DNA of 64,000 nucleotides from Allomeiothermus silvanus DSM 9946 (GTDB lineage Bacteria > Deinococcota > Deinococci > Deinococcales > Thermaceae): the NCBI RefSeq assembly GCF_000092125.1, contig NC_014213.1:124001-188000 (forward strand). Direction: 5' to 3'. A model generated the notes under the pieces. That model made no database searches and was not told the origin of the DNA. It worked only from the letters and a program-made list of their open reading frames with translations. The position numbers and the translations under genes were made by a program. Of the stretch, positions 21,225 to 62,788 are shown in pieces. Numbering within the stretch: the stretch's first letter is position 1; each line of letters starts with the position of its first letter.

Positions 21225-21234
21225 AGGCACCTCC

Positions 21235-41060: not shown

Positions 41061-42727
41061 TGCATTTCCTCACTTATGGTCGATCCGCAAAGAGCCCAAC
41101 TCCTTGCCCGAATCGTAGAACTTGAGAACCTCTCCCCATTCCAGGGTTGTTCTAGCATCAACGGGATAGTTACCGCTTTTGACCTCCACCCCCAGGGGAA
41201 CACCCTCCAGGTACGGTTTGCCCTTATGACGCCGCAGCTCGAGCCCCTCCAATCTGTCCTCTCCAAAAAGCCTCCCCACGTCCACCGCTCCTTTGAGAGG
41301 TTTTTCGACGTCCTGGCATCCTCGATCCGGAGCTGTGGTGAAAGTCCCTTTGCCCCAGGGCCGCTGCGACTGCCACCAGCGCCAAAGGAGCCCCCCCAGG
41401 AGCAGTAAAAGGAGTAGAAAGAACCACCAGTAGCGCCTGAGCCAGTCCCACCAGGTCATGGGCTGGGTGACCGGTGGGAGGGTGCTGGGGGTCTGGAGGG
41501 TGCTTCCCGGGGGGGGCGTGAGCTGGAGGCTTGGCCTGACCGTGCTGCCGCCCCCCAACCCGGTGTTTTCCACCGCCACCTTCAACTCCTCCCCGGGGCG
41601 GAGTGTGACTGGACCCTCCTGCCCGTTCAGGGAGGCCCTTAAGCCTTTGGGCGCCTCCACCGCCACCGTGAGGGGCTCCTTGGCCCAGGCGTTGCCCTGC
41701 AGCCGGTAGGTAAGGGCGGCCTTCTCCCCAGGCCGCAGTTGCAGGGTCTCGGGAACGTTGACGGGCACCAGGGTGTAGGCACCCGGGGGGTGAAAAGCCA
41801 GCCGGAGGGGAATGCCTCTGGGTCGGACCACGGTTTCGCTGGGGGCTTTGGGGCATAGCCAGGCCTGGTAAGTTCCGGGGGTGAGACCATCGGAGTTGCG
41901 CAAGCGGAAAGTCAGGGTCGCGGTACCCCCCGCGGGAACCCTCGAGGGCTCCACCTGGAGGAAGGCCCCAGCCCGGTCCAAGACCGGGGCCTCCACGCCA
42001 AGGCCGATGGTCTGAACAGAACCCCGGGACTCCAGCTGGATGTCCCTCCGGATCTCCCGTGTATCCCATAGGTTGCCCAGGTCAAGGGCGGAGGGGCGAA
42101 GGATCACCTCGCTCAGGCTGGGTACCTGGTTAGGAGGGGCCTCGAGAACCCGCGCGTTGGGTGCTTTGCTCAAGGAGGTAATCACGTCCTTAGGGGCCGG
42201 AATGCCCAGGCTGATGTAAAAGATCCAGTCATACGCGCCGCGCTGGAGTTCGTAGCGGCGGGTCACATCTTGGATGGTCAACGGGGCGGGATCGTTGTCC
42301 TGCCCATCCGTAAAGACGTAGACGTTGTAGGCCTCGTTGGGACGCCGATTTTGTCCGATACCCTCGAGGATCTTCAGAAGGGTAGCGTAGAGATAGGTTT
42401 GTGAGCCCCGGGCCTCGAGGGTGTCCACATAACGGAAAAGGGCATCTTTCTCCGCGGGTAAAACAAAGGTGCGGCTCGGCCCAGGCCCGGCGTCGAAGGG
42501 CTGGATGGTAATGCGGCTGTCGGGGGGTAGCTGCTCTGCGAAACGCTTCAGCTCCGTTTTGACCCGGGGAAAGATCACCCGCCCCTTACCGTCACCCAGC
42601 CCCATCATGGAGCCCGAGGTGTCCAAAACAAACACGTAGTGGTAGCGATCTGGTAGAGGCGCCAGCGCTACGCCCGGGCCAGCTTCACTGGTAGAGCAGG
42701 TTTGGGCGCGGACTGGGGAAAGCAGAT

Positions 42728-43819
42728 TAGGACTTACGCAGTTGGCTGAAGGATGTGGAGGGGATGGGCGAGATAACTTCGTATTGCCTCGCGAACAATG
42801 GACGCCTTGGCCTCGTACCAGCTCACCCCCCTGCGCAGCCGGTAGACCTCCAGCCGGAGGAAGGCCCGCAAAGCCAGGAGGAGGTGCCGCAGGATGGAGA
42901 CCGCCTTCCTCACCTGGGCCCGCTCCACCCCACAGCACTGCTTGAGCCCCCGATGGTACACTTCGATCCCCCATCCTTGCCGCTCTAACTCCGCCCGCTT
43001 CTCTTCGCTCATCCCCAGATGGTTCGTGGCCCAGTACTCCGCCTCCCCGTCCTTGGAGAGCGTTCGGAACACCCTCACGAACCCAAAACCCCGAAGATGA
43101 ACCACCCTCCCCTCCCCAGGGATTTCCACCTCACGGATGGGTACATTTCCCTTCCCCTCCGGGTTGACCAGGCGGTTGCCCTTCAGCCGCGTCAGAAACC
43201 GCCAGCCAAAGCTGACTATGGCCTTGAGGTTCTCCAAGCTGGCATACCAGCTGTCCATCAGGACATATTCCGGCTGAAACCCCCGCTCCTTCGCTTTCTG
43301 GAGCATGGTCTGAAAGTGGTCGTTTTTGCTCTTCCCATCCTGGGGCTTGTCGTAGACCCGAAAGTCGCAGGGGATCAGGGCCTGCCCCTCCGTCCACAGC
43401 AGGGTCATGAGGGCGATGCCCCTAACCACCCTTTGGTGTTTGCCGCTCCAGTGGTAACTCACCAGATCCATGTCCCGAGCGTAGGGCTTATCCAGGGTGG
43501 TGTCGTCCAGGATCAGCAGCCCCTCCCTGAGCTTCACGAAGGCCTTGGCCTCCTGCCACAGCGCCGCCGTGTCGGGCGGCTGTCTTTGCAGCAGGCGGGT
43601 AAAGGCATCATGGGCGGGAGGGCTCTTCTCCTTTGGACTACAGCGAGCGGCCTCGGTACAGGTGAAGACCCGCTGAGCGGCGATGAGAAAGTGGATGTAG
43701 TCCAGGTCATCGCACTTCGGTGGGTTCATGGGCATCACCCCCTTTGGAGAAGCTTGGCTAAGCACTCTCCTCCTAGCACACAGAAGAATGTCCAGTCAAC
43801 TGCAACTGCGTAACTCCTA
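42728..43819 (-). mobile_element. IS element (IS4/IS701-like), copy 2, inside the VWA gene
   Basis: This is a 1,092-bp copy matching 35076-36167 with the same terminal repeats and orientation, flanked by a 5-bp direct repeat CAGAT (42723-42727 and 43820-43824). It cuts the VWA gene within its signal peptide. Confidence 0.93.
42734..43765 (-). CDS. IS4/IS701-like DDE transposase, copy 2
   Basis: The protein is identical to the 343-residue transposase of copy 1 (LLILDDTTLDKPYARDMDLV and GWGIEVYHRGLKQCCG are the diagnostic parts). Identity of both copies indicates recent transposition within this replicon or from a shared source. Confidence 0.93.
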   Translation of the reverse strand: MLSQASPKGVMPMNPPKCDDLDYIHFLIAAQRVFTCTEAARCSPKEKSPPAHDAFTRLLQRQPPDTAALWQEAKAFVKLREGLLILDDTTLDKPYARDMDLVSYHWSGKHQRVVRGIALMTLLWTEGQALIPCDFRVYDKPQDGKSKNDHFQTMLQKAKERGFQPEYVLMDSWYASLENLKAIVSFGWRFLTRLKGNRLVNPEGKGNVPIREVEIPGEGRVVHLRGFGFVRVFRTLSKDGEAEYWATNHLGMSEEKRAELERQGWGIEVYHRGLKQCCGVERAQVRKAVSILRHLLLALRAFLRLEVYRLRRGVSWYEAKASIVREAIRSYLAHPLHILQPTA

Positions 43820-44195: not shown

Positions 44196-45200
44196 CTAGC
44201 GCGAAAGGGTCAACGGCGACAGCTCCCTCAAACGTAGTGCCTCCCCCCACCTGGCTGCCAGGGTGCGAATCTCGCCGAGCCAGCGGACCCGCAGGTCCTC
44301 CGGGGCCACCACCTCCACCAGACTGCCCCAGGAAAGAACCCAACCCAGAAGCTCGAAGGGGTACCCATCCGGACCCGCATTCACCTCGTACACCGCCTCG
44401 GCGCGGCCATCTTCCAACGGGTGCCATTCCACAGCTTCCGGCAGGTCCCCCTCCCGGAGCCTTGGAATCACCTCCGGGGCGAAGCGAAGCACTACCTGCA
44501 CCTTGCGGTGAGCTAGGGTAACGCCCCAGGCCCCGGAAAGCAGCTGGTTCGGGTCGAAGCTCTCGGGGATAGAGTAGCGCTCGTCCAGGAGCACCGGGTT
44601 GGACATGCGGGCCAGCTTGTACACGCTGGGGCCGGGATGCCTTGAGCCGGGCATGCGGGCCAGCGCATACAGTGCCAGGTTCCAACGGTTCAGCTCCAGA
44701 AACCAGACCTCCAGCTTCCGTTGGGACCGTCTACCCTGCAGATCGCGGTAACCGACTTGCAAAACCCGCCGCTCCTGCCAGGCCCGGAGCACCATCTCCA
44801 GGACGCGATCGGAGGGGAGGTTGCGCCGGCGGTACGCCTCGAGGTCTCGCGCAACCAAGCCGCGAATATGCTCGGGAAGCTGCTTGATATGGCGGTGTAG
44901 CTCGTCTAAAAAATACTGATGATGGGTAGGGGCCTGGTGGTAGAAGAACCGAAAGATGGTGTAGTTCAAGAGGAGGCTGTAGGGACTTTGTTGCGTCTTG
45001 GTAACCAGGTAATAGCGCCCTTGGGCGTCCACCTGTACGCTGCCGTGCAACTTGCGCAGGTCGTCGAGATCCCGCTGAATCGTTCTCTGGCTAATCCCAA
45101 GCCGCTCGGCCAGTTCTGCCGTGCTGCGTGGCCGGAGTTCTAAATGCCTTTCAATTTCCAACAGGCGTATAGACTTCTTGTGCGACCGCTTTTCACCCAT
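44196..45200 (-). CDS. HTH-WYL domain transcriptional regulator
   Basis: The 334-residue protein has an N-terminal winged helix (RSTAELAERLGISQRTIQRD, residues about 28-47) and a WYL domain (VLQVGYRDLQGRRSQRKLEV with WNLALYALAR), then a C-terminal WCX-like region. WYL regulators such as BrxR control BREX and CRISPR loci and sense small ligands or nucleic acids. It lies at the end of the first defence-like unit and directly before the second, between two copies of a shared palindrome. The ATG has no strong Shine-Dalgarno site. Confidence 0.9.
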   Translation of the reverse strand: MGEKRSHKKSIRLLEIERHLELRPRSTAELAERLGISQRTIQRDLDDLRKLHGSVQVDAQGRYYLVTKTQQSPYSLLLNYTIFRFFYHQAPTHHQYFLDELHRHIKQLPEHIRGLVARDLEAYRRRNLPSDRVLEMVLRAWQERRVLQVGYRDLQGRRSQRKLEVWFLELNRWNLALYALARMPGSRHPGPSVYKLARMSNPVLLDERYSIPESFDPNQLLSGAWGVTLAHRKVQVVLRFAPEVIPRLREGDLPEAVEWHPLEDGRAEAVYEVNAGPDGYPFELLGWVLSWGSLVEVVAPEDLRVRWLGEIRTLAARWGEALRLRELSPLTLSR

Positions 45201-45279: not shown

Positions 45280-46809
45280 TTAGGCCAACGACCGGCCCAA
45301 GCCTAAACCCTGCCGCCACCATTCCCCCGGCCACCCTTGCGGCATAAGGGTAAAGGACACGGATGCATCGAACACATCCGCCTCGATTCGAAGCGGCATC
45401 AATGTGGGCCGCACCAGCAGACTACCCTCAGGCTCCGTTGGCAAAACTTCCTCCCGTATCAGGCGCTCCCCCGCAAAGACTCGAGCCCGCAGGGCGAGGC
45501 CCGGAGGATGGGTGCGGACAAAAGCCCCCTGGGGCCCGGTCCAGCCCTCGAGGCGCACCCTCACCTCCACGGGCAAGCTCGCTAGCTTGCGCCATTCGTT
45601 TTTCTGACCGTCGGTCCTGACCTCCACGATGAGTTCGTCCTTGGGGGTTAAGCCCTCTCCAATCTCCTGCGCCAGTTCCTCGGGACGCTCCTTAATCTCC
45701 CCCCCGGAGGCCAGGAGGAAGCGCAGGGGATGTTGCGCGGGGTCGAAGCCGATGGGGCGCACCTCGAGGGGCTCCCCCAGCGTCCATGTCGCCCTGGAGA
45801 AGCGAACCGCGAAGGCCCTGTGCTGCAGGCGGAAGCCCACTGCCTCGCCTTCCTCAAAGGAGACCTCGAGTTCTTCGGGGAGGGGTTCTCCCTCCGGCGT
45901 ACACCGAGGCACCCAGGAAAAGCGCTTGAAGCGCCCATCTTCCAGGGTGACTTTTCCGTATACTCTCCACCCCTCCAGCAAGGGCTCGCGGCTAAGCGTG
46001 GGCTGAATCTCCTCGAGAGTGGGTATGGCTTGCAGCAGTTCGACCCTCACCTGCTTATGCCGGAAACGCGCACGGCGAGCTACAGCCGATGTCTTCCCTC
46101 CCCTGAGTTCCCAGAAGAGGTCCTTCAGGGCCTGATCCGAGCGGTTGAACAAAAGCCGCACGGGGTTGGGTTCTCCCAGGTAGAGGCCCGCCTGGGTGAG
46201 AAAGTCCAGAACGGCCCCCTCGTCGCCTAGATCCGGAACGGTCTCCTCTTCCAGCAGGAGTTCCATCGCCTCCTGGAGTCTGCGGAACACCCGCTCGTAG
46301 GGCTGGGCTTTCTCGGGAAGCCCGCCGGTCCGGTAAAAATCCAGGAAAGAAGCTTTGAGCGCGGTGAGCCGGAGAGCCTTGAATTGAAAGACCGCATCCA
46401 GACTGCCTATGAAATCCCTATCGCCGTTTTCGTGAACCTTGAGGCAACACCTGGTTTCATCGTGCAAATCCAGGGCTTCCCAAAGGCGATCGTACTCCGC
46501 CCGCGTGGGGCTACGCCCCTCCATACCCAGGTCTTGCAGGAAATGGGGCCAGAAGGCGCGGTCGTTCTCCGGCACCTCTCGGTAGAGAAAATAGCCGCGT
46601 AGGTAGCCGAGGAGGACTCGAGCAGGGATCAACGCCTCCCCTTGCGAGCGGACCGACTCCAGCAGATTCGTCCAGCGCTCACCCCGCCATACCTGGCCCA
46701 TCAGGGGCTTTACCCCCTCGTAGTCCTGCTGGGCCACGTGGGCCTGCGCTACTCCCTCCCGCTGCACCGCTTTATCCAAGTTCAGCGCGTGAATCCAAGG
46801 ATCCGCCAT
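45280..46809 (-). CDS. Unknown 509-aa protein
   Basis: I do not recognise the family. The N-terminal 240 residues are helical (WRGERWTNLLESVRSQGEAL, RFRHKQVRVELLQAIPTLEE) and the C-terminal half is beta-rich (EVSFEEGEAVGFRLQHRAFA, LRIEADVFDASVSFTLMPQG), with no signal, membrane segment, ATPase or nuclease motif. ATG 46809 lies inside the end of the coiled-coil gene (38-bp overlap), so the two are translated together. It is probably a structural or adaptor part of the system. Confidence 0.68.
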   Translation of the reverse strand: MADPWIHALNLDKAVQREGVAQAHVAQQDYEGVKPLMGQVWRGERWTNLLESVRSQGEALIPARVLLGYLRGYFLYREVPENDRAFWPHFLQDLGMEGRSPTRAEYDRLWEALDLHDETRCCLKVHENGDRDFIGSLDAVFQFKALRLTALKASFLDFYRTGGLPEKAQPYERVFRRLQEAMELLLEEETVPDLGDEGAVLDFLTQAGLYLGEPNPVRLLFNRSDQALKDLFWELRGGKTSAVARRARFRHKQVRVELLQAIPTLEEIQPTLSREPLLEGWRVYGKVTLEDGRFKRFSWVPRCTPEGEPLPEELEVSFEEGEAVGFRLQHRAFAVRFSRATWTLGEPLEVRPIGFDPAQHPLRFLLASGGEIKERPEELAQEIGEGLTPKDELIVEVRTDGQKNEWRKLASLPVEVRVRLEGWTGPQGAFVRTHPPGLALRARVFAGERLIREEVLPTEPEGSLLVRPTLMPLRIEADVFDASVSFTLMPQGWPGEWWRQGLGLGRSLA

Positions 46810-47335
46810 CCCGCACCCCCTCTAGCCAAGCCAAAAGAGCCCACTCCAGCACCAGGCCGGTGCGTATCCTCCGCCAGTCGGGCTCCTTGCCCCCGAGCGC
46901 TCGGGACAGGGCTTCCTTCCGTTCTTCCCAGCCCGCCTCGATCCAGTGTTCTAATTCATTTCCCTGAAGCTCACGCGCCTTCTCGACCAGGGTCTGATCC
47001 CAAATCTCCAGCGCCTGTGCCAGGAAGCGAAAGAAGCCCTCGCCCAACGGAGGCTGCGATAACCCCTCCAAGCGATTGTTGGCTTTCTGTAGGGCGCGCT
47101 CGCAGCGATGAAGGGCTTGTCGTTGCTCTTCGACGGTGCGCTGCAAAGTTTCAGTCTTGCGGAGGTATTCTTCGCGGAGGGTGTGTTCCTGCTCGGTGAG
47201 CTTCTGTCTCAGCTCTACGATCTCCCTGCTCTGCGCTTCCAAGCGCTCTTCCAGCCTTCCTTTTTCCGTTTGCCAGCGGCGACGATCCTCCTCCCAATGC
47301 TGCTCGAACCACTTCAGCCGTTCTTGGCAGTCCAT
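46772..47335 (-). CDS. Coiled-coil protein (187 aa)
   Basis: Residues 5 to about 95 form a continuous charged coiled coil (RWQTEKGRLEERLEAQSREI, LRQKLTEQEHTLREEYLRK); the rest is a small helical domain (LAQALEIWDQTLVEKARELQ). ATG overlaps the stop of the upstream gene (TAATG). Its pairing with the next coiled-coil gene suggests that the two products form a hetero-oligomer; function is unknown. Confidence 0.72.
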   Translation of the reverse strand: MDCQERLKWFEQHWEEDRRRWQTEKGRLEERLEAQSREIVELRQKLTEQEHTLREEYLRKTETLQRTVEEQRQALHRCERALQKANNRLEGLSQPPLGEGFFRFLAQALEIWDQTLVEKARELQGNELEHWIEAGWEERKEALSRALGGKEPDWRRIRTGLVLEWALLAWLEGVRDGGSLDSRAELG

Positions 47336-48345
47336 TATTCCTCCCTAACGCGGGGCGAAGAGGGTCGCCGCCCTTCCAGAAGCAGTGCCTCCAGGCGGAA
47401 AGCGTGGGTCCTTAGCCAGCGTGCGAGGGGGAGGCCGGCCAGGTCCAGCAGCAACTGCTCCAGCCCTAGAAGCACGATTCCCTCCGGTTCGCCCATGATC
47501 AGCTCACGATTGCTGTGGTCAAAGGCGGGGTGACCCTTCCCCTCGAGGAGGGCTTGGTATCCCTCGATAAGGGCGATCACCCGCTCTTCCGCCTTGCCCC
47601 CCAGGCGGGGATAGTCCAGCACCAGAACCCGAAGGAGGGCCTCTGGCGGGAAGGGCTCGGGAAGGGCTTGCTGGAAGCTTTTGAGCCTGTAGAGCTGGGC
47701 CTCGAGGTGCTTTTTTTGCTCCGCGATGCTCTCGAGTTCCCGTACCCGGGCCTCGAGCTCGTCCACACGCCTTTTTTGTCCCCTGATCTGCTCTTCCAGC
47801 GCCGCTTTGGCCGTCTGGAAGGTGGCGTTTTCGGCCTGAGCCTTGTGCAGGGCTTGCCGTGTTTCCTCTAGCTGAGTGCGAAGCTGGCTTTCCTCTTCGG
47901 CAACACGCGATAGCGCCTTACGGAGTTCAGCCGCTTCTTGCTGGGCTTTTCCCTTGGCGCTCTCCGCTTCTTGCCTGGCCCGCTCGACCTTCTCGAGGCT
48001 GGCTTTGAGCTTTGCAGCGGCGTCGGCCTTTTGCTGGAACTTTTTCTCACACTGCTGCAGCCTGCGTAAGAGGTCTCGATCGTGAACGGGCATCTGCATT
48101 TCTCCGTCAGGTTGCGCGGCGGGCGGCCTTGATCCGATCTCAACCACCTCACCCGCGGTTGTTTCTCGGGGTGAGGTTTTCGCGGATTCCCCGTCCCGGC
48201 CTGAGGGGATTGCGAGCGTTTCCTTGAAGTTAGGGGGCAATGCCTGCAAGACCTTCTTCACGGAGGGGACAGGGCCTCTGGCCTCGGCTGGAAGGCCGAG
48301 GACATGCCGCGCCACTTCCCTCAAGACCCCCTCAAGCTCCTCCAT
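47335..48345 (-). CDS. Coiled-coil protein (336 aa)
   Basis: After about 90 variable residues a long coiled coil runs from about 90 to 215 (LLRRLQQCEKKFQQKADAAA, QEAAELRKALSRVAEEESQL), followed by a globular C-terminal domain (ALLRVLVLDYPRLGGKAEER). The layout resembles GrpE- or MukB-like scaffolds only in general form; no family is recognised. ATG 48345 with GGAGGTGG upstream overlaps the end of the helicase fusion gene by 14 bp. Confidence 0.72.
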   Translation of the reverse strand: MEELEGVLREVARHVLGLPAEARGPVPSVKKVLQALPPNFKETLAIPSGRDGESAKTSPRETTAGEVVEIGSRPPAAQPDGEMQMPVHDRDLLRRLQQCEKKFQQKADAAAKLKASLEKVERARQEAESAKGKAQQEAAELRKALSRVAEEESQLRTQLEETRQALHKAQAENATFQTAKAALEEQIRGQKRRVDELEARVRELESIAEQKKHLEAQLYRLKSFQQALPEPFPPEALLRVLVLDYPRLGGKAEERVIALIEGYQALLEGKGHPAFDHSNRELIMGEPEGIVLLGLEQLLLDLAGLPLARWLRTHAFRLEALLLEGRRPSSPRVREE

Positions 48346-51300
48346 GCGCCACCTCCTGCCTCAGCCGGCGCTCGTGGCGGGCCCGGCCTCGCTCGGTAAG
48401 CCCGTAAAGCGGGCTGCCCTCGTATGCGCCCTTCGGCTCGAGATACCCCTCCTTCAGCGCTGCCTTGAAGGTGCGCTTCAGCTCTTTGGGCTTGATGAAG
48501 GAAAGGTGGCCGAAGAAGCGGTTGTCGGTGTACTTGCGCCCCAAAGAGCCGCTCTTGCCCCGGTCCTGGCCCCGCAGGGCCATCAGGGTGCTGCGCTCTC
48601 CCAGATACATGTAGCGAGCTTCCCGCGACCGGGCGCTTTCCTCGGCCCAGGCGAAGAAAGCCAGCAGGGTATCCAGGGGGCGGTAGGCCCGCTCGAGATC
48701 CTCTTCCTCCAGCCCCTCCAGGGCTTCCCAGGGACCGGGATCTCTTTCACAGACATCGCAAACAGCGCAAGCAGCCGAGCTTTCTCCTAGATGCTTTAGC
48801 AACACCTGCGTGCGGCAGCGGGCATTCTCGGCATAGCGCCGTACCTGAGCCAAGCGTTCTTTCGCGCTTTTTTCAAGTTCTCGGCGCTCCTGATCCCAGT
48901 GGCGGTAGCCCACCTCCAGCCCCTGGCCCGCTCTGATGTAAAGCAGGGGCTCTCGGTAGTGGTAAAGCCCGATTCTGCGCTCCCTGAACAGCCGATAAAG
49001 TCTTTGATCAAGCTCCAGGGCTTTCTCTGGGGGAATCTGGGAGAAGTCTAACCCATCCCCCCGCTCCGCACCCCCGTAGCCAACCTTATGCAAAAGAGCG
49101 ATCTCTTCGTCGGTCAGGCACTCACGAAGCACATCCTCGGAGGCCTGAAGCAAGGCCTTTCCTGGCCGGTACTCGTACTCCAACACCCTGGCTCGCTCGA
49201 GGCTGGAGAGGGTGCGCTCGAGGTTCTCCAGGCCCAGCTCCCGCCGCAGGGGGGTCGCGGTTGCTTCCTCCTCGTCCTCCGTATCGCCCTCTTCCGGGTC
49301 TTCCGCGAGGGCATCCTCGGCTTCGCTTTCCTCGGATTCGCTGCTGTAAATGCGTTCGTAAATGCGTTCGTATAGCTGCTTGGAGTAGCGGATCAGGGTG
49401 CCTTCCTCGCTCAGGAGGTCGATCAGCAGGTTGGCGAAGTCCGCCTGGGCCTTGCTGGCTTGCCCTACTCCAACGGCCCACTCGAGGAACGACCAGTCCG
49501 CCCCGGTATGCAGCAGCAGGCAGTATGCGGTCTTGCCATCCCTTCCTGCACGCCCCGACTGCTGGACGTACTCCTCCAGGCTGCGCGGAGGTCGCCAGTG
49601 GATCACCAGGCGTATGTCCGGCTTGTCAATGCCCATACCGAAAGCGGTAGTGGCCACCATGACCCGGATCTGACCGGAGATGAAACGCTCCTGGGCCTCG
49701 CGGCGGGGCACCGGGCCCAGCCCCGCGTGGTAGGCCTCAACCTCCAGGTCGGGAAAGAGGCGGCCCAAAGCCCAGGAGAGCCGCTCGGCCTCGGCTCGGG
49801 TGGCGGTATAGACGATGGCGCTGCCTCCCTCCCCACACTCCGTGAGCCAATGCAGCGCTTTAGCCAGAACCTGGAACTTGCCCGCTTCCCCCTTAGCCTT
49901 TCTCACCACAAAGCGGAGGTTGGGGCGGTGGAAGCTCTCGGGCTTGATGAGCTGGGAGGTTTCCAGTCTAGCGGCTTCCTGCAGCCGCTTGAGATCCTTC
50001 AAGGCCAGGGTAGCGGTGAAAAAGCTCCGGGGAACCCCTTCTAGAGCCTTCAGCCTTTCCAGAACCTTGAGGTAGTCGGGCCGAAAGTCGAAGCCCCACT
50101 CCACCAGGCAGTGGGCCTCGTCGAAAACCACCCGCCGCAGTTTCCCCGCAGAATGCACCTCCTGGATCAGGTTCCAGAGGGTCTTGCTGCGGTTGAGCCG
50201 CTCCGGGCTTACATACAGGAGTTGCACCCGCCCGGCCCTGACCTCATCCAGCACGCTCCTTTGCTCCCCCGATCCCATCAGCGAGTGCACCGCACCCACC
50301 GGCAGGCCCAGCTCCAGAAGCCGGTCGGCCTGATCCTTCATCAAGGCCACCAAGGGAGAGATCACCAAGGTGAGCCCCTCCTGCATGAAGGCTGGGAGCT
50401 GGAAGGCCAGGCTCTTGCCGAAGCCGGTAGGGAGCAGAGCTACCAGGTCCTGGCCCTCCAGGGCCCCCCGGATAGCCTCCGCCTGTTTGCCCCAGCGGTC
50501 TTCAACCAGCAAAAGCCCATAGACCTGCTCCGCGATACGTCGGGCTTTTGCCAGGGGCTCGAGGTCGGTCTGCAGGATCGCCCGCAGCTGGCGCAAGGCT
50601 TCATCTTCCAGCTCATCCCAAGGGAGCTGGTTTCGCTCCACCTCCAGGATTTTTGCGAGCCGGTCGTAAAGGTCTTTGCGATCCTCGGGGAAGTGCTGCT
50701 GAACGCCCGGCGGCAGGGCACGGTAAAAGGCTACCTGGTAAGCAGCATTGAGTAGCTTCTTGTCCCACAGGATGAAGGCCCCGTCCCCCACCCCCACCCG
50801 CTGATCCCGAATGAGTCGGCCGAAAGCCTGGGCGAAGGAAAGAACGGCCTTGGGAAGGTAATAATCCCACCACTTGTCCAACCCTTGCTCATAGGCCCGC
50901 TCCATGCGCTTGCTAAGCAGTAGGGAGGGTAAGGGAAAGGGAATGCGCTCCAGGCTCACCAGCTTCAATGCCGGGAAGTCCACCCCTTCCATGTAGCTTC
51001 GCGACCCCAGGGCGGCCAAGGGGGCCTCGGGGTTCTGCTTGATGCGGCTGGCGATATCTTCGCGCTCCTTGCGAGTGAGGGGGACCAGGAGGTGAGGATG
51101 GTCCTGCAGGGCATCCTTAGCTTCGTGCAAGCGCTTCAGGCTGGTGAAGAGGGAGAGGCTGCGGTGGGATTTAGGCAGGAGAACCCTGAGTTCCTCGTGG
51201 AGCATGCGCTGAAAGCGGGGCAGGGTGCCCTCGCGAGCCTCGGGGAGGTGACGGGGCACCAGCAGGTGGGCCTTTTCGTAGGGCAAAGAGGGAGGCAGCC

Positions 51301-53365
51301 GGTGGTGCTCGGCTTCGTTCAAGCCCAGGACCCGCTTTTGCAGACCAAAGCCCTCGGGGTCTTGCTCGGTAGGCACGCTCAGGGTTGCGCTGGTGAGAAC
51401 TATGCCCTTAAAGCGGGGCCACAGCTTGGCCTCGAGCGCGCGCGATACGTCAATGGGCTGCGCCAGGTGCCGCCAGCTCCCGGTGGTCGGATCCCACTCC
51501 GAAAGGTGGAGCCGGTTGGGGTCGGGCTCCCCCTTGGCCAGCCCCAGAACCCGGCGGCGCTCGAAGAGCATATCCAAGGCTTCTTTGAGATACTCCCGAA
51601 GGGGTGCCAGATCGCGGGCCATGAGGCTTCTCGAATCCTGTCCGATAGCGCTGAGCGCTGCTTTGAGTTCACCAAGGATTTGGATGAGCAGCTGTTCTTC
51701 TTGATTGATGCGAGGCCACTCTTCAAGCCTTTTCCAGGCGCCGCTCAGCCCCAGGCTGAGGCCGTAGCGCGGATCCCCCGAACCCCGGTTCTTGATAAAG
51801 GCCACCAGATGACGGGAATAGTTGCCCAAGGCCTCACGCAGTCTGGGAAGCAGCTTCTGAACGACCTCTTTGGCCTTGTCCTGCTCCTCCTCAGGCAGCT
51901 CGCTCAGCCGTCGATGGTCCTTGAGAAGGCCACGATCCTTGCTGGGGTGGGCCAGCCGGTTGAGCTGATGGGCGAACTCCTCATGATCCAAAACCAGGGA
52001 GAGGGCCTCGGTGGCGGTGTCCTCGAGGTGGTGGGCCTCGTCCAGGACCAGGTGAACCGCTACCTCTTCTCCTTCCCCCTCCTCTTCCCGCAATAAGTGG
52101 GCCAGAAGGTAGGCCTGGTTGGTTACCCGGATCTGGGCCCCATTGCGCTGACCCAGCTGGTGCTGGAAGGCGCAGGTGTGGAAAAAGGCGCAGTCTTCCC
52201 GGCAGCGGCGAGGATTGGTGCCTACCCGGCCTCTCGCCTCGCGGAAGCCCTTGGAGAAGTGCCAGTAGCCGGGAAGGGCCTCGAGGTCGTGACCCCCTAA
52301 AGCCGCATAGTGCAGGAGCAGGCCCACCGCGGTCCTAAACTCTTCATCCTCTTCTCCCCTGGCGTCCAGAAAGAGTTCGAAGAGGGCCTCCGGGCAGAGG
52401 GTGTCCCTGGGGCTCTTGACCAGGGCAGCTTTTACCTGGTAGCCCTTCTCGCCTAGCTCCTTGAGCTCCTTCAGGGCCTGGGCCTGTAGCACCTTGGTAT
52501 GGGTGGCTACCCAGGTTGTTTCGTTCACGTGCAGGGCGGGGTATAGATAGCCCTTGGTCTTGCCGGTGCCGGTGGGGGCCTCGAGGAAAACCCGCCGCCC
52601 ATTCCGCAAGGCTCCTTCCACCGCCTGGAACATCGCATCCTGGGCATCTCTACGGGTAGTCAGCAGATCCGAGCCCAAACCGGAGGGATGGGGCAGGGGC
52701 CGACCGTCGTAGAAAACCGACTCCACCCAAGCCGGGGTGGCTAGAAGATCCCTGACCTGGCCTGGGGTATCCACGAACAGCTCCCCCTCGATGAGCCCAA
52801 GCTCACGCCAGGCCCGGGCCACCCCGTCGGGCAGCTTTTGCAGCACCAGCCCAGCCAGGACCTTCCAGGTGGCCTCTACGTCAGCCCCAGCCCGGTGAGC
52901 ACCGGTCAGTTCCTCATCGGTGAAGTAGCGGTAGAGATCCCCCAATCGATAGCCGGAAAGCCCCTCAGGTGGAAGGGGAAAGACCAACTGGGCCAGGCGC
53001 AGGGTATCCAGCGCGGGCTGCGCTGTGGAGGGGAGCTCCAGGCCCACCTCCCGTAAGGCTCGCTTCAGCAAGGGAAGGTCGTAGCGTAGCAGGTTATGGC
53101 CGAGGAGGGGGCGGTCGCCCAGGAAGTCCAGGAGTTCCTTGAATGCCCTTTCGCGCGGTACCTTTTCCCTCTCGTACTCGTGGAAGTCAATACCGGTAAA
53201 GCGGAACGCTTCGTGATCCGGTTTTAGGGGTTCAGGGGTATCGATATACCAGCGGCGGGAATGCCCCTGCATGTCCTGAGCGGCAATCTCGAGGATGTGT
53301 GCTTCCGCTGGGTCCGGGGCGGCGGCCTCAAGATCCAGGGCCACCCAGTCTCTCGCTGTGCTCAC
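48332..53365 (-). CDS. DnaQ-exonuclease / DinG-helicase / RecQ-helicase triple fusion
   Basis: The 1,677-residue protein joins three enzymes. Residues 1-180 are a DEDD 3'-5' exonuclease (VALDLEAAA, GHNLLRYD, AHRAGADVEA; the acidic residues and His are present). Residues about 240-900 are an XPD/DinG helicase: Walker A EAPTGTGKTKG near 268, DEAHHLED near 443, SATLS, and four cysteines (TLCPEAL...RRCREDC...HTC) that could bind a 4Fe-4S cluster. Residues about 960-1560 are RecQ: LPTGFGKSLAF near 982, VFDEAHCLVEWG near 1085, QQSGRAGRDGK, and a zinc site (ARCRT...CAVCDVC). A winged-helix-like tail ends the protein. DnaQ-DinG fusions are known; adding RecQ is unusual. It starts the helicase part of the first unit. 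Confidence 0.92.
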   Translation of the reverse strand: MSTARDWVALDLEAAAPDPAEAHILEIAAQDMQGHSRRWYIDTPEPLKPDHEAFRFTGIDFHEYEREKVPRERAFKELLDFLGDRPLLGHNLLRYDLPLLKRALREVGLELPSTAQPALDTLRLAQLVFPLPPEGLSGYRLGDLYRYFTDEELTGAHRAGADVEATWKVLAGLVLQKLPDGVARAWRELGLIEGELFVDTPGQVRDLLATPAWVESVFYDGRPLPHPSGLGSDLLTTRRDAQDAMFQAVEGALRNGRRVFLEAPTGTGKTKGYLYPALHVNETTWVATHTKVLQAQALKELKELGEKGYQVKAALVKSPRDTLCPEALFELFLDARGEEDEEFRTAVGLLLHYAALGGHDLEALPGYWHFSKGFREARGRVGTNPRRCREDCAFFHTCAFQHQLGQRNGAQIRVTNQAYLLAHLLREEEGEGEEVAVHLVLDEAHHLEDTATEALSLVLDHEEFAHQLNRLAHPSKDRGLLKDHRRLSELPEEEQDKAKEVVQKLLPRLREALGNYSRHLVAFIKNRGSGDPRYGLSLGLSGAWKRLEEWPRINQEEQLLIQILGELKAALSAIGQDSRSLMARDLAPLREYLKEALDMLFERRRVLGLAKGEPDPNRLHLSEWDPTTGSWRHLAQPIDVSRALEAKLWPRFKGIVLTSATLSVPTEQDPEGFGLQKRVLGLNEAEHHRLPPSLPYEKAHLLVPRHLPEAREGTLPRFQRMLHEELRVLLPKSHRSLSLFTSLKRLHEAKDALQDHPHLLVPLTRKEREDIASRIKQNPEAPLAALGSRSYMEGVDFPALKLVSLERIPFPLPSLLLSKRMERAYEQGLDKWWDYYLPKAVLSFAQAFGRLIRDQRVGVGDGAFILWDKKLLNAAYQVAFYRALPPGVQQHFPEDRKDLYDRLAKILEVERNQLPWDELEDEALRQLRAILQTDLEPLAKARRIAEQVYGLLLVEDRWGKQAEAIRGALEGQDLVALLPTGFGKSLAFQLPAFMQEGLTLVISPLVALMKDQADRLLELGLPVGAVHSLMGSGEQRSVLDEVRAGRVQLLYVSPERLNRSKTLWNLIQEVHSAGKLRRVVFDEAHCLVEWGFDFRPDYLKVLERLKALEGVPRSFFTATLALKDLKRLQEAARLETSQLIKPESFHRPNLRFVVRKAKGEAGKFQVLAKALHWLTECGEGGSAIVYTATRAEAERLSWALGRLFPDLEVEAYHAGLGPVPRREAQERFISGQIRVMVATTAFGMGIDKPDIRLVIHWRPPRSLEEYVQQSGRAGRDGKTAYCLLLHTGADWSFLEWAVGVGQASKAQADFANLLIDLLSEEGTLIRYSKQLYERIYERIYSSESEESEAEDALAEDPEEGDTEDEEEATATPLRRELGLENLERTLSSLERARVLEYEYRPGKALLQASEDVLRECLTDEEIALLHKVGYGGAERGDGLDFSQIPPEKALELDQRLYRLFRERRIGLYHYREPLLYIRAGQGLEVGYRHWDQERRELEKSAKERLAQVRRYAENARCRTQVLLKHLGESSAACAVCDVCERDPGPWEALEGLEEEDLERAYRPLDTLLAFFAWAEESARSREARYMYLGERSTLMALRGQDRGKSGSLGRKYTDNRFFGHLSFIKPKELKRTFKAALKEGYLEPKGAYEGSPLYGLTERGRARHERRLRQEVAHGGA

Positions 53366-53416: not shown

Positions 53417-53686
53417 TTACTTCTTGGGCGCGAACTCATACTTGCCGGTGAAAGGGTTTTGCTGAATCTCCCAATCCTCCGGCACTTGCTCGTAGCGGCC
53501 GGTGTAGGGGTTGAACTTGTCCACCAGCTTGTTTCCCTTCTTGCTATAGCCCCGGGTAAAGGGGGAGTAGCTCAAATCCTCCGCCTTGCCGTACTCGTAG
53601 CGCCCTTCGTATTCGTTGTAGGTAGGCTCCATGTCCTCTTCCGCGTACTCATAGCGCTGGGTATAGGGGTTGTACTTGAGGGGCAT
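53417..53686 (-). CDS. Small NPYTGRYE-repeat protein (89 aa)
   Basis: The protein is built of five imperfect 16-20-residue repeats around (Y/F)NPYTGRYE: KYNPYTQRYEYAEED, TYNEYEGRYEYGKAED, SYSPFTRGYSKKG, KFNPYTGRYEQVPED, QQNPFTGKYEFAPKK. It is rich in Tyr, Lys and Glu and probably lacks a hydrophobic core. I do not know the family. It lies 51 bp before the triple-fusion gene and 21 bp after the YbjN-like gene. Confidence 0.7.
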   Translation of the reverse strand: MPLKYNPYTQRYEYAEEDMEPTYNEYEGRYEYGKAEDLSYSPFTRGYSKKGNKLVDKFNPYTGRYEQVPEDWEIQQNPFTGKYEFAPKK

Positions 53687-58417: not shown

Positions 58418-59497
58418 TCATTTTTGCAATACCCTGTAATCGGTCAACACATTTGAGACTCTTTGAGGAACCGACTCCTCTTGCATCTTAGCCAAAAACT
58501 CCAGCGGAGCAAGACCCCCCAGGGCCATGTGAGGCCTTCGGCGGTTGTAGTAGTCCAGGTAGGTATCCAGCTCTGCCTGCAGCTCGCTGAGCGGGGTGGG
58601 CAAAGGCCGGGTGTAGAACTCCTCCTTGAAGGTCCGCTGCATCCGCTCCACGTGACCATTGAGTTTAGGACTCCTCGGCGGTAGCACAAACAAGGCAATC
58701 CCCAGAGCACAGCAGGCCTCCTCAAACTCGGCCATGAACTCGCTGCCCCCATCCACCTGGATGGCCCGGATGGGAAAAGGGGCCCTGGCCAGAAGCAAGG
58801 ACAAGAACCCCTCAGAAAGCTTAGCCGTGGCCCGGCTGTGCACCTCCGCCAGGACAAACCGGCTATGGAGGTCAATCGCCGAGAAGTGCTTGACCATGCT
58901 TCCCGGTCCTAAGGTCAGGGTGAGGGTGTCCACCTGGACCAGGTCCCCAGGAGCCCTGGCCTCGTATCCTCGGGGCTTCCTTTTGGCGTAGGGCCGGTTT
59001 ACCCTTCGCTTTAGCTTCCCTCTTTGAGTCCGGGCCAGGTAGCCGGCCACGCTCTCGATACGTCGGTGCTTCTCCAGGTAGGCCAGGATGCGCCCCACCG
59101 TGCGTTCGCTCATCTGGAAACCCTCCTTGCGGAGGGTAAGCCAGATGGACCAGCGTCCCCAGGTGGGGTTTTCCTTGCGGAGAGTTTCTATTCTAATGAG
59201 CAGCCCTGGGGTCCAGTGGACCTTTGTGCGCAGGTGCTTAGGGCGGCGGGAGCGGGGTTTGAGTCCAGCCAGGCCCTTTTCTTTTAGGGCTTTTTGCCAG
59301 CGGTGGTAGGTGGCCCGGCTGATCCCGACCAGGTCCTGGATCTCCTTCCAGCTCTTTTTACTTTCACGCAGGGCTTTGACCAGTCGGAGCTTGCGCAGAC
59401 GTTCCTGGACCTCTGGGTCGCTTGCGTTGGCCTCGGCCAGCCTCTGTGCTTGTCTAGCGCCTCTCCATATCTCTCGGCCAACGGTGGTAAACTGCAC
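58418..59497 (-). CDS. IS481-family transposase
   Basis: The 359-residue protein has an N-terminal helix-turn-helix (SWKEIQDLVGISRATYHRWQ) and an integrase core with DDE residues in DLVQVDTLTLTLG, IQVDGGSEFMAEF and GHVERMQRTFKEEF. It is full length. Its last codons run through the left inverted repeat, so the extreme C-terminus may come from flanking DNA. Confidence 0.93.
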   Translation of the reverse strand: MQFTTVGREIWRGARQAQRLAEANASDPEVQERLRKLRLVKALRESKKSWKEIQDLVGISRATYHRWQKALKEKGLAGLKPRSRRPKHLRTKVHWTPGLLIRIETLRKENPTWGRWSIWLTLRKEGFQMSERTVGRILAYLEKHRRIESVAGYLARTQRGKLKRRVNRPYAKRKPRGYEARAPGDLVQVDTLTLTLGPGSMVKHFSAIDLHSRFVLAEVHSRATAKLSEGFLSLLLARAPFPIRAIQVDGGSEFMAEFEEACCALGIALFVLPPRSPKLNGHVERMQRTFKEEFYTRPLPTPLSELQAELDTYLDYYNRRRPHMALGGLAPLEFLAKMQEESVPQRVSNVLTDYRVLQK

Positions 59498-59567
59498 CTG
59501 GGGAACCTCCTTTCCTGGTCGGTTCCCCTCTTTTTATCCCAGCTTAGAGTCTCACATGTGTTTGTCC
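58418..59567 (-). mobile_element. IS481-family insertion sequence replacing the second CRISPR array
   Basis: The terminal inverted repeats include ACACATTTGAGACTCT (about 58447-58462) and the inverse of ACACATGTGAGACTCT (59546-59561). Exact ends are uncertain by about 20 bp and no target duplication is visible, which fits an IS-mediated deletion of neighbouring DNA. The right end abuts the truncated leader at 59568. Confidence 0.75.
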
Positions 59568-59720
59568 GGGTTCAGGGGCTGTTTGCGCGAACCCCCCCAA
59601 AAAGGCTTCCGACGCAGGGTGGGGGAAGGTGAAGGGAAAACGGGTTTTCAATGTTCCCTAGCCGATTTCTCGGCTTGCGCGAACCCCCCCGGGTTTTGGC
59701 ACTTGCTTGGGGTTCGCGCA
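59568..59720 (-). promoter_or_regulatory. CRISPR leader, copy 2 (orphan, truncated)
   Basis: This 153-bp sequence is about 93 percent identical to 3547-3699, including both TGCGCGAACCCCC motifs and the final GGGGTTCGCGCA. It is adjacent to cas2 and in the orientation to serve an array below 59568, but no repeat follows. The match stops between the positions of the -35 and -10 boxes of copy 1, so its promoter is broken. Confidence 0.88.
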
Positions 59721-59739
59721 AAGCAAGTGCCAGGGTGGC

Positions 59740-60039
59740 CTAGACCACCAAGGGGTCATCGAAGTCGGTGTACTTGTCCTGGCCGTGTACCCGCAAGCAC
59801 TTTTCCCGGCCTCCGGGCAGGGTGTAGATGCGCAGGCTGTCTTTGTCCGGCTCGATAATTTTGAGTAGTTTGGCCTCCATGTCCTCGAGCTGGGCCCGCG
59901 TCACGCGGCACTCAAACACCGACATCTGCACCCGCTGGCCAAAGTTCTTGCAGACCTTGGCGACCCGGGCCAAGCGCGCCTGGCCGTCTGCAGAGGTCAC
60001 GTTTACATCGTAGGTAACCAGAATATCCAGCCGTTCCAT
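59740..60039 (-). CDS. cas2: CRISPR-associated endoribonuclease/integrase subunit Cas2 (type I-C-like)
   Basis: The 99-residue protein has the ferredoxin-like Cas2 fold with the metal-site Asp in ILVTYDVNV, then RLARVAKVCKNFGQRVQMSV and LLKIIEPDKDSLRIYTL, closest in style to type I-C Cas2. With Cas1 it integrates new spacers at the leader end. ATG lies 2 bp after the cas1 stop. Confidence 0.95.
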   Translation of the reverse strand: MERLDILVTYDVNVTSADGQARLARVAKVCKNFGQRVQMSVFECRVTRAQLEDMEAKLLKIIEPDKDSLRIYTLPGGREKCLRVHGQDKYTDFDDPLVV

Positions 60040-60041
60040 AT

Positions 60042-61061
60042 CTACCTACCAACAAACGGGGGGTACTCGGGCAGGTCGCCCCGCAGGTAGCGGGCCAGCA
60101 GGCGGGCCTGGATGTGGGGCAGCAACCCGATGGGTACGGGCTCTTTGAAAAAGGGGTGCTGCACGGTTTCTTGCCTACGGCCCTGAAAGGCCACGATAAC
60201 TGCCTTTCTCCCTTCCTCGTTCAACAACACCGCACCGCCGCGGCGTTCCTCGAAGTGCTGGGGAGAAAGCTGCTTGCGGTTCAAGAGCGAGAGCACCAGC
60301 CGGTCGGCCCACCAGGCCCTGAACTCCTCGAGCAGGTCCAGGGCCAACGCGTTGCGCCCAGGCCGCAGGGCATGCAGAAAGCCTACCTGGGGATCGAGCC
60401 CCACCCCTTCCAAGGCGGCGGTGCACTGGGTGGTGAGCAGGGCATATACAAAGCCCAGCAGGGCGTTCACCGGGTCGCGCGGGGGGCGTTTGTTGCGCCC
60501 CTCGAAGCGAAACTCGCCCGAGAGCAATAGATCCCCAAAGGCCGCGAAGTAGGCGCTGGCGGCCTGCCCCTCGAGGCCCCGTACCTCGTCCACCGTTCGC
60601 GCTTGGGCAAGCTGGCGCAGGGCCGCTTCGTGTTCAAAAAGAGCTTGATTCAGGGCCTCGGTCTCGCCCCGTTCGCGCACGGCCCGCTGTAGCACCAGCC
60701 GAGCGTTCTTAAGCTTGCCCTCCACAAAGCGCGCGGCCAGATACAAGCAGGTCGAAGGATTCTCCAGCGCCCGGTACTGCGCCCGCCGCAGCAGCACGTT
60801 TCCAGAAACCGGCCCCGCAAGCCGTCCCTGAAAACGGCCCGACTCGCTAAACCAGGTGACCTCGAGGCCATCTTCGGCGCAGCGGTGGAGCAGAAAGGGC
60901 GAAACCAGCACGTTGCCAAAAAGCGCCAAGCCCCCCAGGTGGTGCAGCGGTACATGGCGCAGGGTTACGTCTTCGTGCTGGATGCGCAGGGTGTCGCTCT
61001 CAAGCCGAAGGTATACGCCTTGGGTCTGAATGTAAAGGGTATTGAGCAGCTCGGTAGTCAT
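60042..61061 (-). CDS. cas1: CRISPR integrase Cas1 (type I-C-like)
   Basis: The 339-residue protein has all signature parts: LYIQTQGVYLRLESDTLRI at the start, the catalytic Glu in RGLEGQAASAYFAAFG, FEGRNKRPPRDPVNALLGF, the catalytic His in GFLHALRPGRNALALDLLEE and the following Asp. Sequence style is that of I-C-type Cas1. ATG overlaps the cas4 stop by 4 bp. It would insert spacers at the shared leader; the only remaining array is about 57 kb away at 1440-3518. Confidence 0.96.
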   Translation of the reverse strand: MTTELLNTLYIQTQGVYLRLESDTLRIQHEDVTLRHVPLHHLGGLALFGNVLVSPFLLHRCAEDGLEVTWFSESGRFQGRLAGPVSGNVLLRRAQYRALENPSTCLYLAARFVEGKLKNARLVLQRAVRERGETEALNQALFEHEAALRQLAQARTVDEVRGLEGQAASAYFAAFGDLLLSGEFRFEGRNKRPPRDPVNALLGFVYALLTTQCTAALEGVGLDPQVGFLHALRPGRNALALDLLEEFRAWWADRLVLSLLNRKQLSPQHFEERRGGAVLLNEEGRKAVIVAFQGRRQETVQHPFFKEPVPIGLLPHIQARLLARYLRGDLPEYPPFVGR

Positions 61062-61714
61062 GGCTGGTTATGGCTGAGGTAGTTCAGCAAAGCCTGGGGC
61101 ACCTCGGGCATGCACACCGCAAAGAGCGAGCAGTGGCGGCAGCGCTCGTCCGCAGCGGGCGGGGGCAGGCGGTCTTGAAGCAAAAGCTTACGCAGGGCAC
61201 TGAGGGTCGCCAGGGTGGCCGCCCGCAACTCGGGGGTAAATTCCACCTCTCGGCGGCGCTGACTGGCCTTGCTGAACAAAGCCCCGGCGGGCACGCTCTG
61301 GCCGAACATCTCCTCCAGGCACAGGGCCTGGGCGCAGAGCTGCACCTCGGCGGCCTTACGGGCCAGCTCGCGGGGCCACCGCTTGCCCACCTTGTACTCC
61401 ACCGGGTAGGGCACCCCGTTCACAAACTCCACCACATCCGCCCGTCCCGAAAGCCCCAGCCGCTCCGACCAGATGGGCAAGGCCCGCTCGACCCAGACCC
61501 CTTCGCGCAAGAGTCCTTCGGGAATGTCCGCATTCTCGTGGGCACGGGTTCCCCGCAGGGTGTACTCGTTGTCCTCCCACTCGCCCTCCAGCAGAATCAG
61601 CGCGGCCCGGCGGGGGCAATAGGTGTACTGGGCAAGGGCGCTTAGGGGCAGGGGCTCCTGCTCGGCAGGGCTGGGCGGGTCTATTTGGTGGAATAGGTCG
61701 TCCAGCTCATCCAT
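61058..61714 (-). CDS. cas4: CRISPR-associated exonuclease Cas4
   Basis: The 218-residue protein has the first iron-sulfur cysteine in YTYCPRRAALIL, RecB-like nuclease motifs (GRADVVEF and YPVEYKVGKR, the Glu-x-Lys) and the C-terminal cysteines in ERCRHCSLFAVC. Cas4 trims pre-spacers and selects those next to a PAM for Cas1-Cas2. It has a GGAGG site and is translationally coupled to cas1. Confidence 0.94.
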   Translation of the reverse strand: MDELDDLFHQIDPPSPAEQEPLPLSALAQYTYCPRRAALILLEGEWEDNEYTLRGTRAHENADIPEGLLREGVWVERALPIWSERLGLSGRADVVEFVNGVPYPVEYKVGKRWPRELARKAAEVQLCAQALCLEEMFGQSVPAGALFSKASQRRREVEFTPELRAATLATLSALRKLLLQDRLPPPAADERCRHCSLFAVCMPEVPQALLNYLSHNQP

Positions 61715-61741
61715 AAAGCCTCCGGACAGGCTTTGGGGGCT

Positions 61742-62788
61742 TCAACCGTCGAGCAGGGTGAAGTCCTGCGGCGAATAATCACGCCAGTAGAAGCCCTCCT
61801 GGCACATGCGCTCGTACTCGGGGCCGTGGTGGGTGAGGGCGAACACATACAGCGCACCCTCCTTCTCGGCGTAAAAAACCCGCTCGTCCGTGCGCCCTTT
61901 GGGAAACCCCAGAGCCTCGCCTCCGCCGCTTTTGAGTTCGCTGCTGGCAGCACGGTTGGGCAGCCGTAGGCGCTCTAGCAGCTTGCGGTAGCGCTCTTTG
62001 GTGGCGGGCTCGAGGCCCTCCCAGGTGCGCTTGGCCTTGGGCGCGAGATAGATGGGAATGATTTGGGCCTGCTCGAGTTCACCCCGAAAGGCCTCGAGGT
62101 AAGCCTGACCTAGCGGGGAGAGCACCGTGTAACCGTCGGGCATCTCCTCCAGCAGTAGGCTTATCTCGGTGGGCAACCCTCCAACCCGGGACCTCACCTC
62201 GGCGGTTGGGCGAAGCTCGGCGTCGATCCAATCGAAGAAATCCGTGTTCCAGGCAATTAGGTTGTTCTCCCAGCCGAAGGGAGAAGGGGGTAGCGTCACG
62301 ATGTCGCCAAACCTCTCGTGGATGTAATAGACCGGAACCTTGAACACCAGACCCAGCGCGGTGGCATAGGCGATCTCGGCCTTAAAGCCCCCGGTGGCGT
62401 TGATAGCCGCTGAGTGACCTTCTCGACGGGTCTGACGAATACGCCCGGCCAGCAGTTGAACGAACTGCCTCAGCCCGTAGTCCACGAAACCTTTAGCTTC
62501 GTAGGCCAAGCCCTGTACCTTGAACAGCTCCGTGGGGAATCCCTTTTCGTGCAGGTATGTGGCCACCCACTCCGCGCACCAGCGCCCGTCCTCAGTGTCG
62601 CTGTGCAGCAACTCCACCCGGTCACCCTCGGCCAAAATATGGCTAAGCGAGTTGGTCTCGGCGCTGGCTTTGGCCGGATCCTGGTGGATGTATTCCCGGA
62701 TCTCCGAAGTGTTTTCTTTGCCAATGCCTGCGCGGGCAATATTCCCTAGTAGGCTGGTGCCGACGGTGGTGAGGAAGACAGTGCTCAT
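61742..62788 (-). CDS. CARF-domain protein with C-terminal RelE-like domain (APE2256/Csx1-Csm6-type)
   Basis: The 348-residue N-terminal part is a CARF sensor domain: VGTSLLGNIARAG at the start and INATGGFKAEIAYATALG near residue 131, the ligand-binding loop of the APE2256 family, which senses cyclic oligoadenylate made by type III systems. A winged-helix linker follows (about 195-235). Residues about 243-348 (APKAKRTWEGLEPATKERYR, DERVFYAEKEGALYVFALTH) resemble a RelE-type RNase instead of the usual HEPN domain. ATG overlaps the stop of a truncated upstream gene (ATGA). The RelE call is by pattern only. Confidence 0.8.
   Translation of the reverse strand: MSTVFLTTVGTSLLGNIARAGIGKENTSEIREYIHQDPAKASAETNSLSHILAEGDRVELLHSDTEDGRWCAEWVATYLHEKGFPTELFKVQGLAYEAKGFVDYGLRQFVQLLAGRIRQTRREGHSAAINATGGFKAEIAYATALGLVFKVPVYYIHERFGDIVTLPPSPFGWENNLIAWNTDFFDWIDAELRPTAEVRSRVGGLPTEISLLLEEMPDGYTVLSPLGQAYLEAFRGELEQAQIIPIYLAPKAKRTWEGLEPATKERYRKLLERLRLPNRAASSELKSGGGEALGFPKGRTDERVFYAEKEGALYVFALTHHGPEYERMCQEGFYWRDYSPQDFTLLDG

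Follow-up and report, generated by a model that had tools for sequence, protein, structure and literature searches.

The stretch analysed here, referred to as the window, comprises 64,000 nucleotides of Allomeiothermus silvanus DSM 9946 (contig NC_014213.1, positions 124,001 to 188,000 of the forward strand) and belongs to a contig of 347,854 bases. On its minus strand, at window positions 48332..53365, lies gene A, which opens with a GTG start codon and encodes 1,677 amino acids in which a DEDDh exonuclease, an iron-sulfur (Fe-S) DinG helicase of superfamily 2 (SF2) and a RecQ helicase are fused. Gene A heads a conserved accessory operon of four overlapping genes, A-B-C-D, all on the minus strand. 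Gene B (47335..48345, 336 amino acids) overlaps gene A by 14 nucleotides and encodes a long coiled coil followed by a small C-terminal domain; gene C (46772..47335, 187 amino acids), also a coiled coil, has a start that overlaps the end of gene B; and gene D (45280..46809, 509 amino acids), overlapping gene C by 38 nucleotides, joins a helical N-terminal part to an Ig/FN3-like beta C-terminal part.

Within gene A, again on the minus strand, four regions can be assigned: the DEDDh exonuclease domain at residues 8-170 (52856..53344; Pfam RNase_T, 1.4e-13, and invariant columns); the DinG/XPD-type helicase at residues 238-887 (50705..52654; NCBIfam DinG models, Helicase_C_2 and alignment to 6fwr); the RecQ helicase core at residues 961-1277 (49535..50485; TIGR00614 recQ_fam and the RecQ structure 4tmu); and the RecQ zinc-binding region at residues 1493-1540 (48746..48889; Pfam RecQ_Zn_bind, 3.4e-8, and invariant cysteines). 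Pfam places Helicase_C_2 at 730-886 (1.3e-27), DEAD at 961-1127 (7e-43) and Helicase_C at 1163-1277 (9e-25), and NCBIfam assigns 238-887 to DinG and ~960-1308 to RecQ. The motif residues are invariant in an alignment of 14 proteins, full-length relatives among them. These are D11, E13, D96, H157 and D162 of the exonuclease; GTGKT 266-270, C324, C388, C392, C398 and DEAH 442-445 of the DinG part; the Walker A motif around K984, DEAH 1082-1085 and GRAGRD 1271-1276 of the RecQ part; and C1517, C1533, C1536 and C1539 of the zinc site. In the alignment to 6fwr, C388, C392 and C398 fall on the cysteine cluster of Escherichia coli DinG.

Comparison with curated models refines these assignments. Gene A reaches the RecQ family level (TIGR00614, 314.5 bits; cut-off 219.8), contains the RecQ zinc subdomain (PF16124, 34.6 bits; cut-off 25) and has the DinG/XPD signature (PF13307, 97.4 bits; cut-off 25.3) together with four Fe-S cysteines. 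It falls short of the canonical bacterial RecQ equivalog (TIGR01389, 332.7 bits; cut-off 640.2), and an HRDC domain was found neither in the gene A protein nor anywhere in the window's genome. The N-terminal DEDDh exonuclease followed by DinG corresponds to the exo-DinG architecture, and the score against the curated ExoDinG model is below threshold (TIGR01407, 225.4 bits; cut-off 547.7). Gene A does not resemble RecBCD/AddAB in composition: by Pfam and NCBIfam its motors are SF2 only and its exonuclease is of the RNase_T type, and neither a superfamily 1 (SF1) motor nor a RecB-type PD-(D/E)XK nuclease was found in it. An earlier interpretation, made without database searches and termed here the sequence-only reading, had described one 1,677-residue frame with a DEDD exonuclease, an Fe-S DinG helicase and a RecQ with zinc site, and the Pfam and NCBIfam matches and invariant motifs agree with it. 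Its phrase 'complete RecQ' was slightly generous, as the core and zinc site are present and HRDC is absent.

Comparative data establish that the long frame is genuine. Among 50 Thermaceae genomes, ten near-full-length, single-frame relatives were found besides the window's own, at 57-79% identity. In one of them (G041), a flagged TGA is the terminal stop and 1,657 residues translate without interruption; in another (G038), a different frame encodes the first ~48 residues. Nei-Gojobori estimates of the ratio of nonsynonymous to synonymous substitution rates (dN/dS), made segment by segment for the window protein against two relatives, are 0.12-0.30 across all segments, indicating purifying selection throughout; at the DinG-RecQ junction (residues 890-955) they are 0.19 and 0.28. 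Because near-full-length relatives exist and dN/dS is low, including at the junction, a frameshift or missed stop hidden in the region that joins DinG to RecQ, the finding that would have undone the sequence-only reading, is excluded. The possibility that the single frame is an assembly artefact or a decaying gene draws on the two decayed N-terminal fragments (G003 and G004) that, with one C-terminal fragment at a contig end, make up the remnants of gene A in the same 50 genomes. Set against the ten relatives of the same length, the dN/dS values and the fact that Thermus thermophilus HB27 (PMC1274311) and other families of the Thermales carry the same fusion, this explanation is refuted and has almost no probability left.

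The order A, then B, C and D, recurs in the intact Thermaceae loci examined by tblastn, which include those of HB27 (plasmid pTT27), Thermus brockianus, Thermus aquaticus, Thermus oshimai and Meiothermus taiwanensis; at one locus (L031), tblastn shows gene B interrupted. In three genomes from two additional families of the Thermales, profile searches detect genes B and D adjacent to the fusion; there, gene C is clear (LSA4), weak (L225) or undetected (L224). Among 111 Deinococcota genomes searched, gene D is present in all 14 that carry a full-length gene A, and it is missing from both genomes with N-terminal fragments, G003 and G004. Structure prediction, from an alignment that excluded plasmid-record sequences, gave gene D a helical N-terminal and a beta C-terminal part (AlphaFold; mean pLDDT 83.7, pTM 0.48) and gene B a long coiled coil of low overall confidence. 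Structure searches with the gene D model (Foldseek, VIA-align) returned nothing more specific than Ig/FN3-like beta sandwiches, at low TM-scores, and barely covered the helical part. As the matches are of this kind, a function for gene D was not read from its fold.

The fusion operon is patchily distributed, occurring in 14 of 111 Deinococcota genomes. It is found on plasmids of Thermus and Meiothermus, often megaplasmids; gene A also occurs on megabase-size contigs (G024, G041 and G058) that are probably chromosomes. Residues 1-681 of gene A are 98% identical in a genome of another genus (G004), whereas the sister species (G001) shows 79%, a pattern that indicates recent lateral transfer.

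A search for the same domain order and its neighbours, as the sequence-only reading had proposed, returned relatives within Thermales and beyond, along with the conserved partner genes. With the cut-off for fusion candidates set above the ordinary RecQ maximum (~340 bits), candidates appeared in 4 of 400 Chloroflexota genomes (the phylum of L066) and in 1 of 396 genomes in the phylum of Solirubrobacter; Pfam confirmed the exonuclease-DinG-RecQ order in two (L253 and L254). The Chloroflexota fusion L253 directly follows HsdR-HsdM-HsdS, and another adjoins a sacsin-like gene. Genes B, C and D were not found beside the L253, L255 and L256 fusions; after each of these three lies a conserved protein of ~500 amino acids of unknown family. 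A more distant fusion, with different neighbours, is carried by a plasmid of Deinococcus actinosclerus. A tree of 64 RecQ cores unites the RecQ parts of all 16 fusions in one supported group (97/87), together with a single viral-contig protein. This grouping suits a single origin of the fusion, as read from a tree with a pattern-selected non-fusion sample and several long branches. Among the matches listed, a search of genome contigs for distant relatives yielded mostly ordinary RecQ proteins, and no triple fusion was present among the 80 viral-contig loci kept. One viral-contig protein of ~1,760 amino acids (L135:198-5489) has exonuclease and RecQ regions and no DinG match; it falls within the fusion RecQ group, on a long branch.

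The fusion architecture itself is already known. A DnaQ-DinG-RecQ fusion of T. thermophilus HB27 was published in 2005 by Omelchenko et al. and described there as present in HB27 alone, with none in HB8 (PMC1274311). This protein, TT_RS10770 of pTT27, is the orthologue of gene A, with the same domain order, the same four-gene operon and 57% identity. The available part of the 2005 account describes neither genes B, C and D nor the spread of the fusion (PMC1274311), and in the part of a 2025 DinG review that was available, the RecQ fusion is not among the ten subgroups (PMC11981726). The conserved four-gene operon was not found in the literature searched, and no paper on genes B, C and D or on the function of the fusion was found, HB27 locus-tag searches included, with poor coverage of subscription journals.

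Several known proteins share parts of this architecture. ExoDinG of Firmicutes (structure 8zef; reviewed in PMC11981726) has the same exonuclease-DinG order and is alignable with gene A, which differs in adding a C-terminal RecQ, in scoring far below the TIGR01407 cut-off and in keeping Fe-S cysteines that align with those of E. coli DinG; in the Staphylococcus aureus protein of 8zef, by contrast, the Fe-S cysteines are not aligned. WRN joins a DEDD-type exonuclease and a RecQ helicase in one chain, and the RecQ part of gene A matches WRN structures; WRN lacks a DinG/XPD motor, whereas gene A lacks HRDC. The RecQ-like defence proteins PsyrT and DpdF of PADLOC match gene A as well (2.7e-78 and 7.5e-109), with the match restricted to its RecQ half, and the scan of window genes recognised no additional, non-helicase member of Dpd or PsyrTA. 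RecBCD/AddAB and Sgs1-Dna2 each combine two motors of opposite polarity with a nuclease. Here, the likeness is one of analogy only; the motors (SF1 in RecBCD) and the nuclease fold are unrelated to those of gene A. Dna2 trims the 5' strand, whereas the DEDDh domain of gene A is expected to trim 3' ends.

Proteins of the RecQ family translocate 3'-5' and those of the DinG family 5'-3'. On antiparallel strands, motors of opposite polarity therefore advance the same way, as RecB and RecD do, and the shared net direction makes the fitting analogy a dual-motor machine entering one end. In this form, the RecBCD analogy appears reasonable. The sequence-only reading was right about the fusion and its motifs and went astray on direction: it proposed that the protein could unwind and degrade DNA from either direction, but the two motors would share one net direction, and digestion by the DEDDh domain should be confined to single-strand 3' ends. 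It also overlooked the downstream partner genes and the 2005 report.

From these considerations we infer a scheme for the activities of gene A, the polarity of its motors, complex formation, the roles of genes B, C and D, and a function in defence. RecQ would move 3'-5' along one strand and DinG 5'-3' along its complement, both driving into the duplex from the same side, while the DEDDh domain would trim exposed 3' ends of single-stranded DNA. Gene A would work with its three same-operon partners, presumably in a complex, in which the coiled coils of B and C probably serve as scaffold or assembly factor and the helical and Ig-like beta parts of D probably as sensor or adaptor. The DinG half may act chiefly as a DNA-binding or regulated motor, because Exo-DinG of Bacillus subtilis is a 3'-5' exonuclease on single-stranded DNA without robust 5'-3' helicase activity (PMC12525004). 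The Fe-S cysteines retained in gene A favour an active DinG motor. The operon as a whole is an accessory, laterally moving unit, which most likely destroys or processes invading DNA from phages, plasmids or transformation.

The surroundings of the operon bear on this last proposal. Inspection by eye and family scans of 17 Deinococcota A-D loci, within a radius of roughly 10-15 kb, identified recognised defence genes, of CRISPR, DISARM, Hma or BrxL type, or toxin-antitoxin genes near 9 of them. In the window, these are Cas1, Cas4 and CARF-type genes, together with BrxL, DrmD-, DrmMI- and DruE-like genes. Elsewhere they comprise cas genes of types I-C and III-B in T. thermophilus HB27; VapC toxin and DruE-like helicase genes in T. 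aquaticus; BrxL in T. oshimai and G049; Cas4 in G001; a RES toxin gene in G024; HmaC in G041; and DrmA and DrmB in LSA4, where HsdM/HsdS/HsdR-like open reading frames were also seen by eye.

Several observations weigh against a defence function. The other 8 of the 17 loci have no recognised defence or toxin gene among the genes inspected, some contigs being short. The neighbour count, taken without a background rate from random loci, is suggestive, not statistical, and these megaplasmids carry many defence genes in any case. Genes C and D had no match in Pfam, NCBIfam or PADLOC, and gene B matched only coiled-coil models, weakly in PADLOC; PADLOC 2023 did not recognise B, C and D as parts of a known anti-phage system. 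No experiment on the fusion was found in the literature searched. At one locus (G064), the operon follows RecA-like and RNase Y-like genes in the same orientation (by eye), an arrangement that would suit repair or competence. Taken in aggregate, the evidence makes it the likeliest reading, at about even odds, that gene A acts as a dual-motor helicase-nuclease in a single chain and works in defence.

The main competing explanation is that gene A is an accessory DNA repair or recombination factor, a one-chain enzyme of resection or fork processing with B, C and D as helpers. Both RecQ and DinG belong to the classical helicases of repair, and the combined logic resembles that of eukaryotic Sgs1/BLM-Dna2. 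Consistent with such a role, neither an HRDC protein nor another match to the DinG half was found in the window's genome, and Exo-DinG of B. subtilis mitigates replication stress (PMC12525004). A core repair gene, however, would not be expected to show such a patchy distribution, plasmid location, lateral transfer and decay in several genomes. The gene is present in HB27 and missing from HB8 (PMC1274311), T. thermophilus already has AddAB and RecFOR (PMC11143384), and defence neighbours occur at many loci. With these points in view, repair is rather unlikely. A role in maintaining the plasmid or mobile element, through megaplasmid replication, conversion or partition and not immunity, would account for the megaplasmid location in many strains and for par/rep genes nearby in T. 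brockianus and M. taiwanensis. This linkage is inconsistent, though, and the gene also lies on the probably chromosomal contigs of G024, G041 and G058, making maintenance improbable.

Extending the defence proposal to the whole operon, A-B-C-D may tentatively be viewed as an undescribed anti-invader system of Thermales, with gene A as effector, D as sensor and B and C as scaffold, and with related fusions recruited beside type I restriction in Chloroflexota. If the defence proposal is correct, two SF2 motors of opposite polarity and a nuclease would reside in one chain, and this natural single-protein equivalent of RecBCD or Sgs1-Dna2 would serve immunity. The conservation of the partners, the strict pairing of A with D and the frequent defence neighbours make this odd architecture a testable system in the genetically tractable T. 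thermophilus HB27.

Two other genes near the operon are not part of its core. An HTH-WYL regulator (44196..45200, minus strand) lies downstream of gene D and elsewhere accompanies only some loci. Upstream of gene A, a non-core 89-amino-acid protein (53417..53686, minus strand) carries a repeated NPYTxRYEY-like motif; it also lies near gene A at four other loci (L029, L037, L033 and L043) and matches phage family phrog_28453 of unknown role. The Cas1, Cas4 and CARF-type Cas_APE2256 genes of the window (60042-62788, minus strand) are located ~7 kb upstream of gene A, and no CRISPR array was found at window positions 59400-60100.

On the other side of the operon, genes at 19203-42974 (minus strand) run in one direction and encode VWA, a Tubulin_2 tubulin-like protein, a 686-amino-acid protein, BrxL, and DrmD-, DrmMI/PglX-, DruE- and UvrD-like proteins. 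The UvrD-like helicase (19203-21230, minus strand) has ~200 N-terminal residues that by eye resemble RelE/ParE toxins, for which Pfam gave no confirmation. The order VWA, tubulin, 686-residue protein, BrxL is repeated beside A-D in T. oshimai (L043, where UvrD is also present) and at L033, and these genes may possibly constitute an undescribed BrxL-containing system. Their inclusion in the A-D system was not adopted; most loci have A-D without them. Membership of BREX was likewise set aside, and a 2026 BREX survey makes no mention of DinG, tubulin or Thermus (PMC12839542). The VWA-tubulin-686 block is flanked by two IS701-family transposase genes (35082-36113 and 42734-43765) in the same orientation, which are of equal length, share their protein ends and score identically against the family; the VWA open reading frame (41070-42974) is read from insertion sequence (IS) DNA over its first ~83 codons.

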